Origin: Dicyema japonicum
Lineage: Eukaryota > Dicyemida > Rhombozoa > Dicyemidae
Assembly (NCBI GenBank): GCA_011109175.1
Contig: RDEW01000057.1
Span: 33,605-77,804, forward strand
Direction of reading: 5' to 3'
DNA length: 44,200 nt
Below are positions 4,209 through 41,110 of this stretch, piece by piece; the stretch's first letter is position 1; each line of letters starts with the position of its first letter. A program made the position numbers and the translations under genes. The notes below the pieces were generated by a model, which was not told the DNA's origin, searched no databases, and saw only the letters and a list, made by a program, of their open reading frames with translations.

Positions 4209-6409
4209 ATGATTACAAATTCTAAAAACTGGAAAAAAGTGGACAATTCAAATTTAAAAAGCAATACTTTCGATGCTGTTATAGAGATTGAGGAAAGTAA
4301 TGACTACTGTCTACTAACAACGAATAAGGTTCCAAATAATAGTATACACATAGAAATCCAGATTCACACTAGTTTGACGTTTTCAAAAAAAAGAAAGCAT
4401 GTGCAGTCACTTAAAGGAAATGGAAAATTAAAAAAGACATATAGTGAAGAAATTGAAAATACAGCAAACATTGGTTTTATTGAACCTCTTTATCCCAATT
4501 TGCCTAGATTCTGGAATTTCTGCTTGGAATGCTTTAGAAATACATCCAAAAATTATTTCTGCACTAAAAAAGCTAGAATTTTATGAACCGACTGAAATTC
4601 AATCAAAAACCATTTCTTCCGCTTTGAATTCCCAATCCGACATCATTGGATGTGCTCAAACAGTTTAATTTGAAAATAAATTCAAAGGGAAGTGGGAAAA
4701 CGTTAGCTTTTGGCATTCCGATAGTTGATTTTATTCTCAAAAATAAAATGAAATCTAATTCCAATGTTGCTTTAAATTTATTAATTTTCAGCCTCAAGCA
4801 CTTGTTTTAACCCCTACTCGAGAGCTGGCGATTCAGATACGCGAGCATATTCTGCATATTGTGAAAACTGCAGATATTAAGGTCATTATTAAACTTGTAG
4901 TTTTTAGGTTGAATGTATTGTAGGAGGAATTGCCCAAGTTAAACAGGAACGGATATTTCAATCTTGCCCTGAAATTGTAGTTGCAACCCCAGGGCGGTTA
5001 TGGCAACTTATCCAAGATGTTGATTTCATACAATTTAAACAAAGGGATTTGATTTTGCATCTAAAGTCCGAAACGTTCGATTTCTGGTGATCGACGAAGC
5101 AGATAGAATGATTGGAAAAGATTATTTCGAACATTTTTCATTCATAATTAACGACTTGAATAGGTAATTCTATATATTTCATACTTACAGTGCTCTTGGG
5201 AGATCAATGAGGCGGACATTTGTGTTTTCAGCCACAATGACCTTTGTTCACGATACAAAAAATCGTCAAAATCCAAATGGAAAAAAGCAAACTCTCAAGT
5301 CAAAACTTAGTGAGTTCAATAGTACTAACTAATAATTAGAATCCCTGGTGAGTAAGACTGGAATAAGACGAAATTATACTTTAATTGATTTATCGAATAC
5401 TTCGTTTCTTGTAAACACTCTTTACGAGCAAAAGCTGTATTGTAAACGAGAAGAGAAGGCATTTTATTTTATAAATTATAAAAGGATCATTATCTTTACT
5501 ATATATTGGAATCTCTGAAAGGGAGATCTATCGTATTCACAAACTCGAAAGATTGCACGCGCAGAATTGCTGCATTTCTTCGAATTTTATCTCCTCCTAT
5601 TACTGGAAGTTTTTCTGTTTGCATTCTACATGCCGACATGCTTCAGAAACATCGATTCCGTAACATTGAGAGATTTCGTGGTTTGTCAAGCTGAGATAGT
5701 TATTCTTCAGCTGCAAAGGGTCCCTCCGTTTTGGTCGCAACGGACGTAGCTTCACGTGGACTGGATATCGAGGATATCGAAAATATCATACACTATCAAG
5801 TATCGACTGTGACTGAAGTTATTTAATTTTAATTATTTTTAGATTTATGTTCATCGTAGTGGAAGAACGGCGAGGGCTGACAAACCTGGGTGTACTATTA
5901 CTATCGTTGGTTACGATGAGCATAAAAGATTTCTGAATATTCAACGCCAACTCAATACAGGTTTATTTTATGTTTTGATTATTAGTTTCTAATATGGCTA
6001 CCTATGAGATAAAGCTATCGTTGGTTACGATGAGCATAAAAGATTTCTGAATATTCAACGCCAACTCAATAGAGGTTTATTTTATGTTTTGATTATTAGT
6101 TTCTAATATGGCTACCTATGAGATAAAGGATTTTGATTTGCTTAAAAAGTCGAAAGAACGAGTTTCACTTGCAGTCAAGATTATGAATTTAGAACATACG
6201 TTTTCCTTATAATAACCAAGTATAGAAATGAAAAGGCAAAACAGCATCATAACTGGATTGAAAAATGTGCTCATGATGCGGAAATAGATATTATCGAGTT
6301 TATTAGTTTTTTGACTGTTAATAGTATGCCTGAAGTTAATGCTTATAAAGAGAACGGTGAAAGAGCAGATACTATCCGTATCTTGCGAACTCAACTAAGG
6401 GGACTTTGA
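4209..6409 (+). CDS. DDX24: DEAD-box RNA helicase of the DDX24/Mak5 type
   Basis: Ribosome-biogenesis helicase of the nucleolus by family. Removing short introns restores the motifs in order: Q-motif ([24 protein letters not shown]), motif I AQT-GSGKT split by a 25-bp intron (4663-4687), Ia PTRELA, GG, Ib TPGRLW, II DEAD as [33 protein letters not shown] and [11 protein letters not shown]. Introns checked: 4474-4507, 4663-4687, 4766-4791, 4882-4907, 5019-5044, 5164-5190, 5310-5339, 5459-5484 (GC-AG), 5678-5710, 5818-5842, 5961-5985 and 6200-6225. The N-terminal WKKVD...IEEsnDY and the C-terminal [14 protein letters not shown] segments are diagnostic of DDX24 rather than other DEAD proteins. 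The start ATG at 4209 matches the family's WK.V opening. The acidic insert of animal DDX24 is missing, so the protein is compact. A 114-bp duplication lies at 5901-6128. Confidence 0.93.
5901..6128 (+). repeat. 114-bp tandem duplication inside the DDX24 gene
   Basis: Positions 5901-6014 recur at 6015-6128 with a c/g difference (aatacagg versus aatagagg). Each unit contains the 25-bp intron 5961-5985, leaving 89 coding bases. Translating both copies as exons therefore shifts frame and hits a stop. The frame is kept only if the second copy is skipped, for example by splicing from 5961 to the equivalent acceptor near 6099, or if the duplication is an assembly artefact. Confidence 0.8.
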
Positions 6410-13389: not shown

Positions 13390-14520
13390 TCTATATTATA
13401 AAACCCAGCTAAAACATACTCGAATATAAATTCTAGTTTTATTTTTTTCTTTGAAATTCCTTGAAAATTAATATAGGCATACTCGAATATAAGCCCTATC
13501 AATTTTTTTTATGAAATAGCTCCCTTGATATTGCCACTAATAATTGTCGTATGTCATAGTGTCCGGGCTGATGAGACCTGATTTATCACATGACAACATC
13601 TAACAAATCATATGAAACTCCCTTTTTTGCAAGATAACAAAAAATATTTTGAGTCGATNNNNNNNNNNNNNNNNNNNNNNNNNNNNNNNNNNNNNNNNNN
13701 NNNNNNNNNNNNNNNNNNNNNNNNNNNNNNNNNNNNNNNNNNNNNNNNNNNNNNNNNNNNNNNNNNNNNNNNNNNNNNNNNNNNNNNNNNNNNNNNNNNN
13801 NNNNNNNNNNNNNNNNNNNNNNNNNNNNNNNNNNNNNNNNNNNNNNNNNNNNNNNNNNNNNNNNNNNNNNNNNNNNNNNNNNNNNNNNNNNNNNNNNNNN
13901 NNNNNNNNNNNNNNNNNNNNNNNNNNNNNNNNNNNNNNNNNNNNNNNNNNNNNNNNNNNNNNNNNNNNNNNNNNNNNNNNNNNNNNNNNNNNNNNNNNNN
14001 NNNNNNNNNNNNNNNNNNNNNNNNNNNNNNNNNNNNNNNNNNNNNNNNNNNNNNNNNNNNNNNNNNNNNNNNNNNNNTTATGCTAAAAGTGATAATGTGG
14101 TTTGGTGAAGGCATAACACTTTCTCCGCAAAGGTAAGAACACTCATTGGTTTATTGTCAACGCGTGCGTCAGCTAATGCGTGTGTGTGACGCCAGACACA
14201 CAGACAGTTGACTTGGCGAATGACTCACGTAGCTAGATTCAATTCAGTGTGTTAAATAAACGGAAAAACGTATGTGGGGATGGATAAAATTAGTGTGGCA
14301 AGGCGGGTGCGGCTTATACACGGTGTATACCTGTAACTCAAAAAACAACCTTCAAAGTTTGGGGTGCGGCCTATACACGGTGGCGGCTTATACACGAGGA
14401 TTTACGGTAACTAAAATAAAACAAAAAAATTATTTTTTCCCAAAACCTGATTTCAAAATAAAAAGTTAAAAATTTCTTCAATAAAATTTATTACCGTATA
14501 TTTTCGAATAAAAATCGAAA
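13390..14520. repeat. Cluster of pogo/Tigger-like terminal-repeat sequences around an assembly gap
   Basis: Two copies of a 'tactcgaatataa' word lie at about 13417 and 13480. To the right of the gap, 'gcggcttatacacg' or a close variant occurs three times (about 14310, 14367 and 14384), followed by 'aggatttacggta'. At 14490 'accgtatattttcgaataa' is similar. These words resemble the ends of pogo/Tigger-type or related TIR elements and non-autonomous derivatives. No transposase is visible here. The internal part may be hidden in the run of n. Confidence 0.45.
13659..14077. other. Assembly gap (419 n)
   Basis: Continuous unknown bases. Apparent open frames across this interval are meaningless. 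Confidence 0.99.
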
Positions 14521-35224: not shown

Positions 35225-35898
35225 TTATATAATAATAATTAATCTAATTTTCGTGTGTTCTCTCGTTCTATAATTAAAACCGAAAAAAGAGAGAAATTAA
35301 TGAGACAAAGTATGCCTCTTAAAATTATATGTTCATTTTCATAATTTTTTCATTCAAAATCTGAATTTTTCTGTGGCTCCCCTAAAAAGTTCTGTGGCTC
35401 TCAAAGGGGGCACTGGCTCCCCTTGGCAGGGCTGGTTTAGACTGTATATATTTTGTCATAAAAGAGAAAACAGAATCCTAACCACCAATAATACATATTC
35501 AAAAAACAGGGAACAATACAAAAATTTAGAACATGGAAAAGTACATTATTTTAAATGTTAATGACATATTGCTGTCATGAAAGGATTTTCCTCATAACAG
35601 CCTCTCTTATTTATTTAAAATAAAAATTTTGTTGTTGGTATCAAAATATTCTTTCACACAAAATTGTTTTTGGAAAAAATGCATTAAAGTTGACTATCTT
35701 TTCTGACATCGATATACATTTTCTTCATTAATATAATTAACCAATTTATTTCTGACATCGATATGAAAAAATAAAAAAATGAAGATAATAAACGCGTGAA
35801 ATCTTTGTTAGTATAAATAATTTATTATTATTTTAGTTTAAATTCATAGGTGCTGCTGCTGAGTTAAATTTCTTTAAATAAAATTTGAATTTAAAATT
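35225..35898. other. A/T-rich spacer
   Basis: No gene is recognised. 'ctgtggctcccctaaaaag' and 'ctgtggctctcaaagggg' near 35370-35410 form an imperfect direct repeat, perhaps another element end. Confidence 0.3.
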
Positions 35899-36813
35899 AC
35901 CGTTCTAAATTATTCGGTTTACGCGATTTTCTGTTTTTTCTTATTATAAAGACGACAATGACACAGATTATCAAAAGTGTAATACCAATAGGTATGAGAA
36001 AATACATTTTAGATCTTTTAACACTTAGTGCGTTCAAATTTGTATTTTTTCTACCCGAAGTGAAACGATTTACAAAATAATAATAAATATTTTACATTTT
36101 GAAATGTGGAATTTTTTTGTTGAATCAGAAAGTGAGCCGTCTAAAAAAGTGATTTGGAAAATAATATTTATAAAGAAATATTTTTACCAATTGTAGCCGG
36201 AGATTTTGTCAGAACATGTGAGCTCTTATGGACTAAAAGGTATTATTCAGTAGATATTTCACTCTCTAAAGTAGTCGGAAATGTTGTCGTGATATTTGTG
36301 CTCTTATGGACTAAAAAGCGATTATTCAGTAGATAATTTACTCTCTAAAGTAGTCGGAGATTTTGTCGTGATATTTGAGCTCTTATGGACTAAAAAGCGA
36401 TTATTCAGTAGATAATTTACTCTCTAAAGTAGTCGGAGATTTTGTCGTGATATTTGAGCTCTTATGGACTAAAAAGCGATTATTCAGTAGATAATTTACT
36501 CTCTAAAGTAGTCGGAGATTTTGTCGTGATATTTGAGCTCTTATGGACTAAAAAGCGATTATTCAGTAGATAATTTACTCTCTAAAGTAGTCGGAGATTT
36601 TGTCGTGATATTTGAGCTCTTATGGACTAAAAAGCGATTATTGAGTAGATAATTTACTCTCTAAAGTAGTCGGAGATTTTGTCGTGATATTTGAGCTCTT
36701 ATGGACTAAAAAGCGATTATTCAGTAGATAATTTACTCTCTAAAGTAGTCAGAGACATTGTTGATTGCTTCTCTGTTGGTGTTATTCGACTTTCAAAAGA
36801 AGTGATAAGGTTG
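35899..36813 (-). CDS. Single-pass membrane protein with Ser/Thr-rich stalk from a 79-bp exon-intron array
   Basis: On the minus strand, seven consecutive small exons (36658-36705, 36579-36626, 36500-36547, 36421-36468, 36342-36389, 36263-36310, 36188-36232) follow a longer one (36737-36813). They are separated by GT-AG introns of 31 bp (30 bp in the last). The repeated exons are 48 bp, phase 1, each giving a 16-residue module IHKSSNITTKSPTTLE; the last is 45 bp. The first exon reads ITSFESRITPTEKQSTMSLT. After two more introns (near 36141-36187 and 36051-36095) the C-terminal exon gives VKRSKMYF, a hydrophobic span LIPIGITLLIICVIVVFII and a basic tail RKNRKSRKPNNLER to TAA near 35899. The frame across the last intron is off by one base as read, and the 5' exons are not found. 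The stalk is mucin-like, with N-I-T and N-x-S/T-type potential glycosylation. Confidence 0.65.
36188..36813 (-). repeat. 79-bp tandem array, seven units, each one exon plus one intron
   Basis: 'ctcttatgga' recurs at 36223, 36301, 36380, 36459, 36538, 36617 and 36696. The five internal units are nearly identical and the outer ones diverge. Where the total is 78 bp (36223 to 36301) the missing base is in the intron, so the coding part stays 48 bp. Confidence 0.95.
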
Positions 36814-36837
36814 CTAAAAATTTTAATTTTTAATTAC

Positions 36838-37618
36838 TGTCATTTTTAAGTGGTCCATATTTCGAAGATAATTAAACTCATTTTTTGACAATATTCGATT
36901 ACTTAGATAAGAATGACATAGAATTACCACAAGGTATTATTCATAACATAATTTTTATTGGTCGAATTAGGCAAACCAAGCAAGTGTAATATATTATATA
37001 GAATTGCTCCATCATATTTCTAGATAAATTTAATTTCTAATACATTTTTATCGTTGTATTTTACGTATATTACATTAATCTCATTCAAGGTTTGTATATT
37101 ATTCCCACCTCTGTTTTCTTTACTTTAAAAAATGAAAAGTAATAGAAAGAACTCTATTTTGATAGTCAAGTAATTTAATTCTTTTGAATTCTCATCAACT
37201 TCGGTTATTTCAATTACATCACAAAGAACCTATTATATATCCAAAAATTATTACTGTTTTAATCATTAAACTATCGTTTGTCTATAATTATTAGTTATAA
37301 AGCAAACAGGGACTTCTCCGAAGGAAATTTTTAGGTTCCATGGATAGCCTATGCATACATTTCACATTAAATTTTAAATTACCGAATGATTGAAAAGCTA
37401 ACCCTCCTAATAATAAATAGATATATACCATTTCTTTTTCACGCTAAAGTCAAATATAAATGTTTCATGCGGAAATTTCGAATACATTATGACGATTATC
37501 TCAGAAATATGAATAATTCATTCATTCTTGACATTATTATAAGAATCAATTCACCATATAAAGCCCACATGTAATTTTATCTTTATCACTGCTTTGTTTA
37601 ATACTATAAATCTGGAGT
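36838..37618. other. No gene recognised
   Basis: A/T-rich. A plus-strand frame of 62 codons at 37386 has no recognisable feature. The missing 5' exons of the repeat-stalk gene should lie here if the gene is intact. Confidence 0.3.
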
Positions 37619-37660
37619 TATACAGTCTGTTCAAAAAAAACGTGACCACTTGAAAATGTA
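37619..37660 (+). repeat. Possible Tc1/mariner-type terminal repeat
   Basis: 'tatacagtctgttcaaaaa' then 'aaacgtgaccac' resembles the 'TA-CAGT.TGTTCAAAA..' ends of Tc1/mariner elements. No mate and no transposase are seen nearby. Confidence 0.3.
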
Positions 37661-37751
37661 TGTTTTTTTAATCTGTGTGACTTATTTTTGAAAATTTCCA
37701 AAGAATACTAAATTTAAAATCTTTTTATTTACACAATTCAATTTTTATTTT

Positions 37752-38093
37752 TGTCACGGTCGTCTTGGAACAACATCGTCTAGACCTTTCCTGACAAATG
37801 TGGGAACTCCTCAAGGCGACTCTCTCTCGCCTCTGCTGTTTGTGATCTACCTCGAGGCTGCCTTGCGAGAGTTGAGAAGCCTATATGAGGGGTCAATCAC
37901 CGAAGTAATTTACGCCGATGACGTCGACTTTGTGTCGGCCGACAAATCCGCGCTCCTCAAACTATTGGAGATTGCACCGGGAAAACTCGGGGAATGGTTT
38001 CTAACCATGAACACGGACAAGACTGACGTTGTTAATGTATCACGTTCGGATACCCAACTTATGGAAACATGGAGACTNTTGTAACTTGGAACT
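37752..38093 (+). pseudogene. Non-LTR reverse transcriptase fragment
   Basis: The reading TNVGTPQGDSLSPLLFVIYL, then EAALRELRSL and VIYADDVDFVSADKSALL, continues to KTDVVNVSRSD. These are RT motifs with catalytic YADD. It has no flanking RT parts and ends at the n (38078). It is much richer in G+C than its neighbours and of a different LINE family from the others in the window. Confidence 0.8.
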
Positions 38094-38378
38094 ACCGACT
38101 GAAAATCCCAAAGATTGGGAATCATCCCTGGTTGAGCAATACCAAACAGTCTCAGGTTCTTAAGATAATGATAGTGACTCAAATTCCGATGGATGGTCGG
38201 AGAGAAGGTCGCTTGTCTCAGAGCAGTGTCGGGTCAAATCCTCGGTTAATATCAGCCTTACCTTACCATTAGTTGGGGGTTCCGTACTTGCATGAACGAC
38301 CGAGTCTGTTCAGTCTTTATTTTTCCGCCATTATTAGAAGATTTTGACCATGAGATCAAAAATCGAATTTACAATCAG

Positions 38379-39120
38379 TTTGAGATTATCGAAAATGCAC
38401 GATTTTGTTGTGCCTCAAGAGACTCGAGATCGTCCTCAGTACTCACTTAAAGGGCAACCTGAAGAACGGAGGTCTCAACGGAGAAGCCAGGAACTTCTCC
38501 TTCAACGTCAGATTAAAGGATGTGATGTACAAGTCAGTCGAAAACCACCTACTCGGTAATATTTTCCATAACTGTCCAGAACAGCAGAATTCTGATGAGC
38601 AATCGAGGACACGGATTGACCCTCCCCCAGAAGCAAGACAGCCTCCGACCATTCCTATGTGGACCCCAATGGGGAACCCTCAGGAGATGTTCAATCCAGG
38701 CTACCCCGGGTACCTCATTGACCCCTGCTAGCCTATATACAACAGTCGTACCAAATGTTGTATCAAAATTACATGATAAATCAAAGAATGATACAATCGG
38801 TTTTTTATGTGCGAAATTGTCTATATTACATATTTATGGCTGCGAATGGCTTCCCACCGCAACTCGCCTTACAAAATGAAGAAATGGCCAGGTCAGGGCT
38901 TTCTGAACTATATGAAATGTGATACGATTTAAATTTAGTGCCAGAAACCAGCCCGTCGTGTTTCCAAATTTCATATTCCAAAAAGGCATGGTTAATAATC
39001 GATTCGGAGCGACTCAGGAAAATAACATTAAAGTTGCTCCACCAGCAGAGGCAACCATGGAGGAGTCAACCCAGGAAGTTAGGGGACAACATTTAATGGA
39101 TACGGTGGAGACTGTTGTTT
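38379..39120 (+). CDS. Unrecognised Pro/Gln-rich gene pieces, faintly HERPUD-like
   Basis: Plus-strand frames read SVLTLKGNLKNGGLNGEA, then DPPPEARQPPTIPMWTPMGN and PQEMFNPGYPGYLIDP. In the next frame they give YIQQSYQMLYQNYMINQ, AANGFPPQLALQNEEMA and finally QPVVFPNFIFQKG with PPAEATMEEST. The Pro-rich centre followed by a Tyr/Gln-rich 'QQ.Y..QY' segment recalls Herp (HERPUD), but neither its N-terminal ubiquitin-like domain nor its membrane hairpin can be confirmed. Frame changes need splices that I could not fix. Confidence 0.25.
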
Positions 39121-40240
39121 GAGGAGTTGCAGCCCAATATTGATGGGAGTTTTGAAACATATTATTCCAGCAAGACGAAGGACCTTGGAACTAAAAATAA
39201 GTGTGAGACTAGTCCCCTCAAACGGGAGATCCTCTTCCTACAAACTAGTCAAGAAGACAGTGACTACTGCATGTAACACTAATTAGAGATAAAAAGTGGA
39301 ACAAGGAAATATTAGAATGAATAATCAGGTTAGTAAATAAGCGACATCCAAATATTTTATTACGCACACTCCTCTCTGCATATCATATTTTTTGAAAAGG
39401 GGTAGCGGCAGAAGTTGCAATCTATTGTGAGTAAACTAACCCACCAAATGCTTCCTCCGTCGTTAACATCGCCTCGGAAGATGAACCTGCGTCTATTCTC
39501 ACACTTTTGTTAGTTAAGGTGATTTTCACCGCAAAAACCGAGTTCGTCGCTTCCGTAATCCTTATATAAGAATATCTAAGTATACATTGTGGGTTGGGAA
39601 CCCTTACTGAATATACACATTTTCTGCCTCTCAGAAATACTACACAGTTAGTAATTTAAACTACTTAATGTTTAGCCTACCACTGATTTTTAGCGACTGA
39701 AAAATGGCATTTCGTGGCATCTCACTTTAATGTTAGAATAAGATTTGTACAGGGTTCTTAAACTGCCTAGACCTGCAACGGCATCTACATCCAGGTAACG
39801 AAGGTTACTACACTCATACAGCAATCTAATGAATTAAAATATTTGAATATACATCCGAGATAAGCTTTCTAACCCATAAAATGAGTCGTTTAGTATTCTC
39901 TTTAATGAGTCTCCTTTACAGTTACTGTTATTAATGATAGGTCTATTACAATATAATCAAGTTGGTTAAATTCGTGAATATTTCTCCATTGAGAAATGTA
40001 ACGCCTCTAAGAATTGCAATAGATGTAGAATGTTCCGCCACATATTCTCGAATGAAATCACAGCCTGACAACTGCCTTATTTAAATTAAGCAATTCTTCA
40101 AAAACGGATTTGTTAAGTCACAGTCACGTTGGATCACTACGTGAACAAAAAATAGGACAAGTGGGAGCATTATAATAAAGGTCATATTTTATTGTGAATA
40201 ACTCATTGGTTAGACATTGAATTAATATATTTATTAAACT
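39121..40240. other. No gene recognised
   Basis: No long coding signal. Sequence composition is mixed and there is no clear repeat. Confidence 0.3.
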
Positions 40241-41110
40241 TTATTTGTTAATATATATTAGATTGCACTTATTTTCCGCGGAGATTAACTGCGTCAAACT
40301 TACAAAGCGTGGTTCTGCATCGATATTTGCATGGAAGTGTCCTAAATGTCTGCAGCACTGCGCGATAGTTAAACCTCCTGCACGCCCTGCCACCATTCCA
40401 CCTGACGAATTTNTACAAACAATAATGAAAAACTCGAATAAATGATTAAATGTACACAATCCATAAATCTCGTTATCGGCCTTATACAGTTCGTCTTTCT
40501 TTTTAAAAATCTTGATAATACACTTTTGATAACTGAAAACGAAAATGAAGAAAAATTCAAGGAAAGACGATAAACACACGACAATTACGAGAATATGTTT
40601 CGAATTGAGTGACGTATGAATACTCGTGGAATGCGGTGCCATCAATAAGACAGTGAACGAATATCGCATGGAATAATACTTTTTGACAAATATATAATTT
40701 TTAATTAGTAGGTCTTGCCAGTCAAAGGGATTTCACTAATTATGGTCACGTCCCCGGAATATGGATCAATTGTCAAATATTCTAAGGAACCCAGAAAGGT
40801 CCTGAAAATAAAATCACTCAGAAAATTCGGAATTGAAGCAGTATTATCGAGAAACGTATCCCCAACCTTAATTTTCAACAAAGAAATCGTCTGAGATTGT
40901 TTTACTCCATTCCCGTTGATGGAATATGCGAAAATATAGGACAATCCAACTACATGGACCAGACAGTATAAATTGCCAAACAATTTTTGGGGACCTGAGT
41001 CGGTGGATTGGATATGCAGCAGAAAATATCCGGTCATGTCAAGGGTTTCGAGAAGATTGTGAGTTTTCTGTTAATGAACTTAGAAAATGGCTGTTTTACT
41101 TATGAAAATT
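40241..41110 (-). CDS. Cadherin-like single-pass membrane protein (partial)
   Basis: On the minus strand 41080-40705 reads NLLETLDMTGYFLLHIQSTD, GNLYCLVHVVGLSYIFAYSI and SLEYLTIDPYSGDVTIISEI. The last has the 'f.iD..sGdv.i...L' pattern of a cadherin repeat. The next reading (40669 leftward) has HSTSIHTSLNSKH, a hydrophobic span ILVIVVCLSSFLEFFFIFVF, a basic stop-transfer (YQKCIIKIFKKKDELYK) and a short cytoplasmic stretch that runs into an n at 40413. No DxND-type calcium motif is visible, so a degenerate cadherin or another beta-sandwich receptor is possible. The upstream extracellular repeats are cut off by the LINE on the right, or were never part of this gene. Confidence 0.4.

Follow-up and report, generated by a model that had tools for sequence, protein, structure and literature searches.

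A 79-bp tandem array beside a membrane-anchor reading frame in Dicyema japonicum: minisatellite or repeated exons?

Can a short tandem repeat consist of complete exons and introns, or does it only resemble such a series? The question is raised by an array on the minus strand of a 44,200-nucleotide stretch of Dicyema japonicum DNA (contig RDEW01000057.1, positions 33,605 to 77,804; hereafter the window, with position 1 as its first letter), in which each 79-bp unit can be read as a GT-AG intron and an exon of 48 nt. The reading leaned towards here, with modest confidence, is that of a non-coding minisatellite; that its unit looks like an exon with an intron would be due to chance. The array would then lie beside a receptor-like gene, or between the parts of one, and outside the spliced message. 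Held more tentatively is the reading as a spliced coding array, in which each unit would add 16 Ser/Thr-rich residues to a stalk placed before a membrane anchor, and copy number would shift by whole exon-intron units.

Anatomy of the array

As a DNA repeat the array is far beyond chance, with 95% matches between units and a TRF score of 1014. Used as a query against the genome of the window (64.67 Mb in 191 contigs), it matched a single place, and so did its flanks, except for one 31-bp match elsewhere. A minisatellite is recognized by head-to-tail units of ~10-100 bp that are highly alike and occupy one locus, and the 79-bp array has these properties. With ordinary minisatellites it also shares the diverged end copies, and in its DNA it is set apart from them only by the neighbouring anchor ORF.

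Seven GT...AG stretches lie on the minus strand of the array, six with a length of 31 nt and one with 30 nt (Table 1). The six 48-nt stretches between or after them are in phase 1 and read IHKSSNITTKSPTTLE or nearly so, and a seventh has 45 nt. Five of the six are identical, and the sixth carries three base differences, all three amino-acid changing; variation among the units shows no sign of coding constraint. One unit has 78 bp, and its missing base falls inside the GT...AG stretch. The base-level details of the original prediction, namely seven 79-bp units that can be read as GT-AG introns and 48-bp phase-1 exons, one of them shortened within its possible intron, are therefore present, with a seventh possible exon of 45 nt. 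Spliced coding draws support from the frame, which runs stop-free through the array once the introns are removed, and from the position of the sole single-base length change inside a GT-AG stretch. It also requires two further introns, of 47 and 23 nt, to join the array to the anchor ORF, and the weak sites of the second count against it.

Table 1. Features of the array and its immediate surroundings, in window coordinates
Feature	Position	Strand	Remark
Possible 5' exon, 77 nt	36737..36813	-	Ends in first partial copy (SLTTLE); first in-frame ATG at 36758
Tandem array	36193..36755	-	Unit of 79 bp, 7.1 copies; minisatellite is the preferred reading
31-nt GT...AG stretches	36736-36706, 36657-36627, 36578-36548, 36499-36469, 36420-36390, 36341-36311	-	Candidate introns; the first is 36706..36736
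First 48-nt stretch	36658..36705	-	Possible phase-1 exon, IHKSSNITTKSPTTLE
Sixth 48-nt stretch	36263..36310	-	Three bases unlike the others, all amino-acid changing
30-nt GT...AG stretch	36262-36233	-	Candidate intron, in the 78-bp unit
Last 45-nt stretch	36188..36232	-	Diverged; seventh in the series
47-nt GT...AG stretch	36141..36187	-	Possible intron between array and anchor ORF
23-nt GT...AG stretch	36051..36073	-	Possible intron; weak sites, score 4.43
Anchor ORF	35897..36050	-	Hydrophobic helix and basic tail, YFLIPIGITLLIICVIVVFIIRKNRKSRKPNNLER; stop codon 35899-35897; likely receptor-like gene end

Splice grammar, intron length and codon choice

The exon-intron structure of the array is not clearly beyond chance. 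A null was built by drawing 3000 79-mers at random from the window outside the array, treating each as a tandem unit and checking whether a GT-AG intron, 18-60 nt long and on either strand, leaves an open exon with a length that is a multiple of three. Such a reading was allowed by 91% of them, and 53% had splice sites as good as or better than those of the array according to a self-trained splice model; for shuffled copies of the 79-bp unit the proportions were 97% and 60%. With a splice model made from 15 hand-picked introns alone, 2759 of the 3000 allowed the reading and 2062 did as well as the array. Even under the strictest setting, which is the most favourable to coding (one given strand, introns of 28-34 nt), 910 of the 3000 allowed it and 359 (12%) were as good. 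Of the nine other tandem arrays of the window with a period of at least 60, eight were tested; all eight allow the reading and four have a better splice score. As most random 79-mers and these other arrays allow it, a tidy structure of this sort is the usual outcome for such a unit. Where DNA is AT-rich and splice sites are loose, a 79-base unit would thus mostly hold a GT...AG pair that leaves an open multiple of three, and a grammar of this kind needs no gene. The original prediction of spliced exon-intron modules accordingly stands for the array and its adjoining anchor ORF, which are real, and is weakened for the splicing itself, as the same grammar turns up in the majority of random 79-mers. 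Read on its plus strand, the unit likewise offers a 25-nt intron, a more usual length here, and a 54-nt exon; coding on that strand was considered and set aside, as the peptide is hydrophobic and has no neighbouring gene part.

Intron length also speaks against the coding reading. The introns of this genome are very short. Twenty-seven pairs of adjacent domain pieces, from HSP70 or kinases, yielded 15 introns kept by hand (the other 12 pairs were overlapping, without a candidate or ambiguous), of which 14 measure 22-26 nt and one 54 nt. When a self-trained gene finder was run on 35 HSP70 and kinase loci, it placed 221 introns; 187 measure 21-27 nt, and the lengths peak at 22-24 nt. In the reference set of 231 that combines the gene-finder introns with the hand-picked ones, a single intron has 30-32 nt and 31 have at least 28 nt, which makes the 31-nt array introns length outliers in this genome. 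Their splice score is 7.84, where the training introns have a median of 11.0 and reach 7.6 at the 10% quantile; when length is included, they rank among the bottom 2% of the modelled set. The length test is softened by the introns of receptor loci (n = 14), eight of which have 23-27 nt and two 28-35 nt. Published values for dicyemids include 26.2 +/- 1.9 nt (n = 16; PMC2222250) and, for Dicyema japonicum with its 67.5-Mb genome, a mean intron of 38.2 bp (PMC6736024), so that longer introns exist in such genomes.

Codon choice points the same way, and as evidence it is weak. The unit scores -1.19 bits, less than the median for 48-mers that are open but non-coding: 58% of the 32,745 open 48-mers of the window reach this value or a higher one, and it corresponds to the 5% point of 5,907 kinase and HSP70 coding 48-mers. 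Low scores also occur in the receptor controls, which limits the weight of the comparison; among 1,054 48-mers from cadherin domains, 17.6% have scores as low as that of the unit. Gene models had to be forced through the array, at a score of -75 bits, which falls to -97 bits when the model is extended to the anchor ORF (forced models range from -75 to -106 bits). When the gene end is forced at the anchor, the model favours 76-nt introns that skip most of each unit, which again counts against splicing of the 48-nt stretches. Nor were there protein relatives at E<=1 among 7984 scored candidates. For a 209-residue reading, the Pfam listing at E<=1 holds eight families, and a SEA domain is not among them; the best row, zf-met, was rejected, as no single stretch rose above threshold. 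A search of 35500-37700 for RNA families gave two sub-threshold matches and none above the gathering score.

The membrane anchor, the 5' end and neighbouring gene pieces

Downstream of the repeats, the ORF listed in Table 1 carries a hydrophobic helix followed by a cytoplasmic-type basic tail. This part of the original prediction is borne out, as the ORF is real and unlikely to arise by chance. A filter that called for an uncharged, hydrophobic stretch of 19 residues and then for five or more K/R within a span of twelve found three cases in 2.64 Mb of simulated DNA (both strands), a rarity somewhat flattered by the filter having been set after the ORF was seen. In 254 kb of examined loci and window, the pattern gave 17 rows, several of which are overlapping loci of one gene. 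They comprise 14 rows from the cadherin search, L051 (fetched by likeness to the window ORF), L029 and the window ORF; 15 of the 17 sit in loci fetched as receptors or for this likeness. The codon score of the ORF (-6.4) is within the range of real receptor anchors (-9.2 to 4.9). Because such an ORF is rare in simulated DNA, a receptor-like gene end is likely here. Possible paralogues of the ORF were sought and discounted, as beyond the self-match there were two weak matches, with E of 0.039 (L051) and 0.18. By its translation L051 appears to be an Ig/FN3-like receptor, and it gave the one tblastx match among 31 fetched loci; the similarity may be that common to membrane helices only.

The anchor is the principal argument for coding. 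It is rare, lies within ~150 nt downstream of the array and is on the same strand. If the anchor gene is whole and short-introned, a further exon should lie close upstream, and no other candidate is as near as the array; mainly for this reason the coding reading retains the tentative standing given to it above.

At the other end, the 77-nt stretch upstream of the array is open in the array frame. The best models, in which introns longer than 90 nt were disallowed, start with MSLTTLE or, when that start is barred, with MDHLKMTQSTMSLTTLE, and neither is hydrophobic. Read by eye, these models contain no upstream in-frame secretion signal within reach of introns of up to 90 nt, a further point against a spliced stalk. 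A protein with an anchor near its C-terminus and no signal peptide is expected to be tail-anchored, with its repeats in the cytosol. For this reason the surface-protein stalk of the original prediction is not established. Further upstream, a 24-nt stretch (36814-36837, minus strand) scores as a typical intron (10.07), and joining it in the array frame brings a TGA immediately before the 77-nt stretch; this intron-like stretch may be part of a different transcript or be due to chance.

More distant gene pieces raise another, unlikely, reading, in which the array was originally part of a receptor gene. Decay of that gene, in a locus rich in retroelements, would have left behind an anchor exon that still looks intact and a repeat that has ceased to be spliced. 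Leucine-rich-repeat gene pieces with a signal-peptide-like start and stop-broken readings occupy 39261-40259 on the minus strand. Their relatives (C177, 79-91%; C36, 80%; C25, 65%; C67, 72%) lie at 65-91% DNA identity on short contigs. These pieces, with their broken readings, would suit decay, as would the reverse-transcriptase pieces on both strands and the retroelement fragments at 37650-39290. A cadherin-like piece (41070-40705) shares its strand with the anchor ORF, with no continuous gene between them. Against decay, the anchor ORF has no disabling change, and the leucine-rich relatives show no translated-level match to the array or anchor region (tblastx, 31 loci). A leucine-rich receptor running from 40259 to 39261 was also considered as the missing 5' part of the anchor gene and was rejected, as its relatives have no match beyond 39261 to this region.

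The cadherin-like piece was recognized by eye, from a motif, IDPYSGDV, that is presumably cadherin-like; it has no Pfam family at E<=0.001. Among the retroelement fragments, a ~107-bp piece (38084-38190) is present in many copies, with at least 24 genome matches among the 41 listed for 37650-39290. A run of N at ~13653-14077 gives rise to spurious X ORFs in the window.

Comparable gene designs and the origin of the array

Gene designs of this kind have precedents. In chicken Muc13, one Ser/Thr/Pro repeat is encoded per exon upstream of the transmembrane domain, the exons are near-identical, and length change through exon number has already been proposed (PMC1552070). The suggestion that no such family had been described is thus superseded, since a mucin stalk with one repeat per exon was already present there. 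If the coding reading is right, the array would resemble Muc13 in its Ser/Thr-rich repeat per exon, its near-identical exons and their place before a transmembrane domain. The two also differ, as Muc13 has at least 12 repeats of 20 residues, a signal sequence, a SEA domain and EST support, whereas the exon-intron unit of the array would be only 79 bp. Muc13 therefore lends the coding reading an existing example, and the array, even if coding, would be a variant of a known design. The coding regions of schistosome micro-exon genes likewise consist for the most part of very small symmetric exons, and in a parasitic worm; however, alternative splicing lets them yield a set of protein variants, whereas the array exons would be near-identical copies (PMC4350168). 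Internal tandem repeats at human exon-intron boundaries alter gene structure and can create introns, but these cases were checked against transcripts (PMC2812944).

The origin of the array is suggested by its ends, which have in common an 11-base near-match, TCTCTGACTAC and TCTCCGGCTAC. A first 79-bp tandem duplication may have been seeded between the two, and unequal exchange or slippage could then have enlarged the array. Two-copy tandem duplications of ~100-200 bp are common in the examined sequence: 14 of the 17 tandem repeats with a period of at least 60 in ~241 kb of distinct sequence have 1.9-2.1 copies with 83-100% matches, in a set of loci (ten repeats in the window, the others in L020, L061, L067, L077 and L090) that is not a random sample. 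The wide spread of identity among these duplications speaks against a simple assembly artefact.

One of them falls in a DEAD-box-type helicase gene of the window (Helicase_C, E 3e-16), where a 114-bp tandem duplication (5901-6128) includes the 25-nt intron of the gene together with 89 nt of exon. As 89 is not a multiple of three, a message that used the two copies would change frame, unless one of them were skipped. A tandem duplication spanning an exon end and an intron can therefore occur in a real gene here. With introns this small, a short duplication easily takes in a whole one, which favours spliced coding; the helicase case gives fair support to the possibility of a whole-exon mechanism, not to its presence at the array. 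That the array works as a gene cassette, with each repeat a complete exon and intron and the stalk of a membrane protein changing by whole 16-residue exons while its frame is kept safe, is rather doubtful. If it were, extreme intron shortening would have turned minisatellite growth into whole-exon protein growth, an invertebrate case would be added to the Muc13 design, and 79 bp would be, to our knowledge, the smallest exon-intron repeat unit. The wider caution is that, in AT-rich DNA with loose splice sites, tandem units usually show a neat in-frame exon-intron structure, and such structures therefore need evidence from RNA or from other species.

A further two-copy tandem duplication, of 162 bp (L067:2075-2398), belongs to a cadherin-like gene and covers its membrane helix region.
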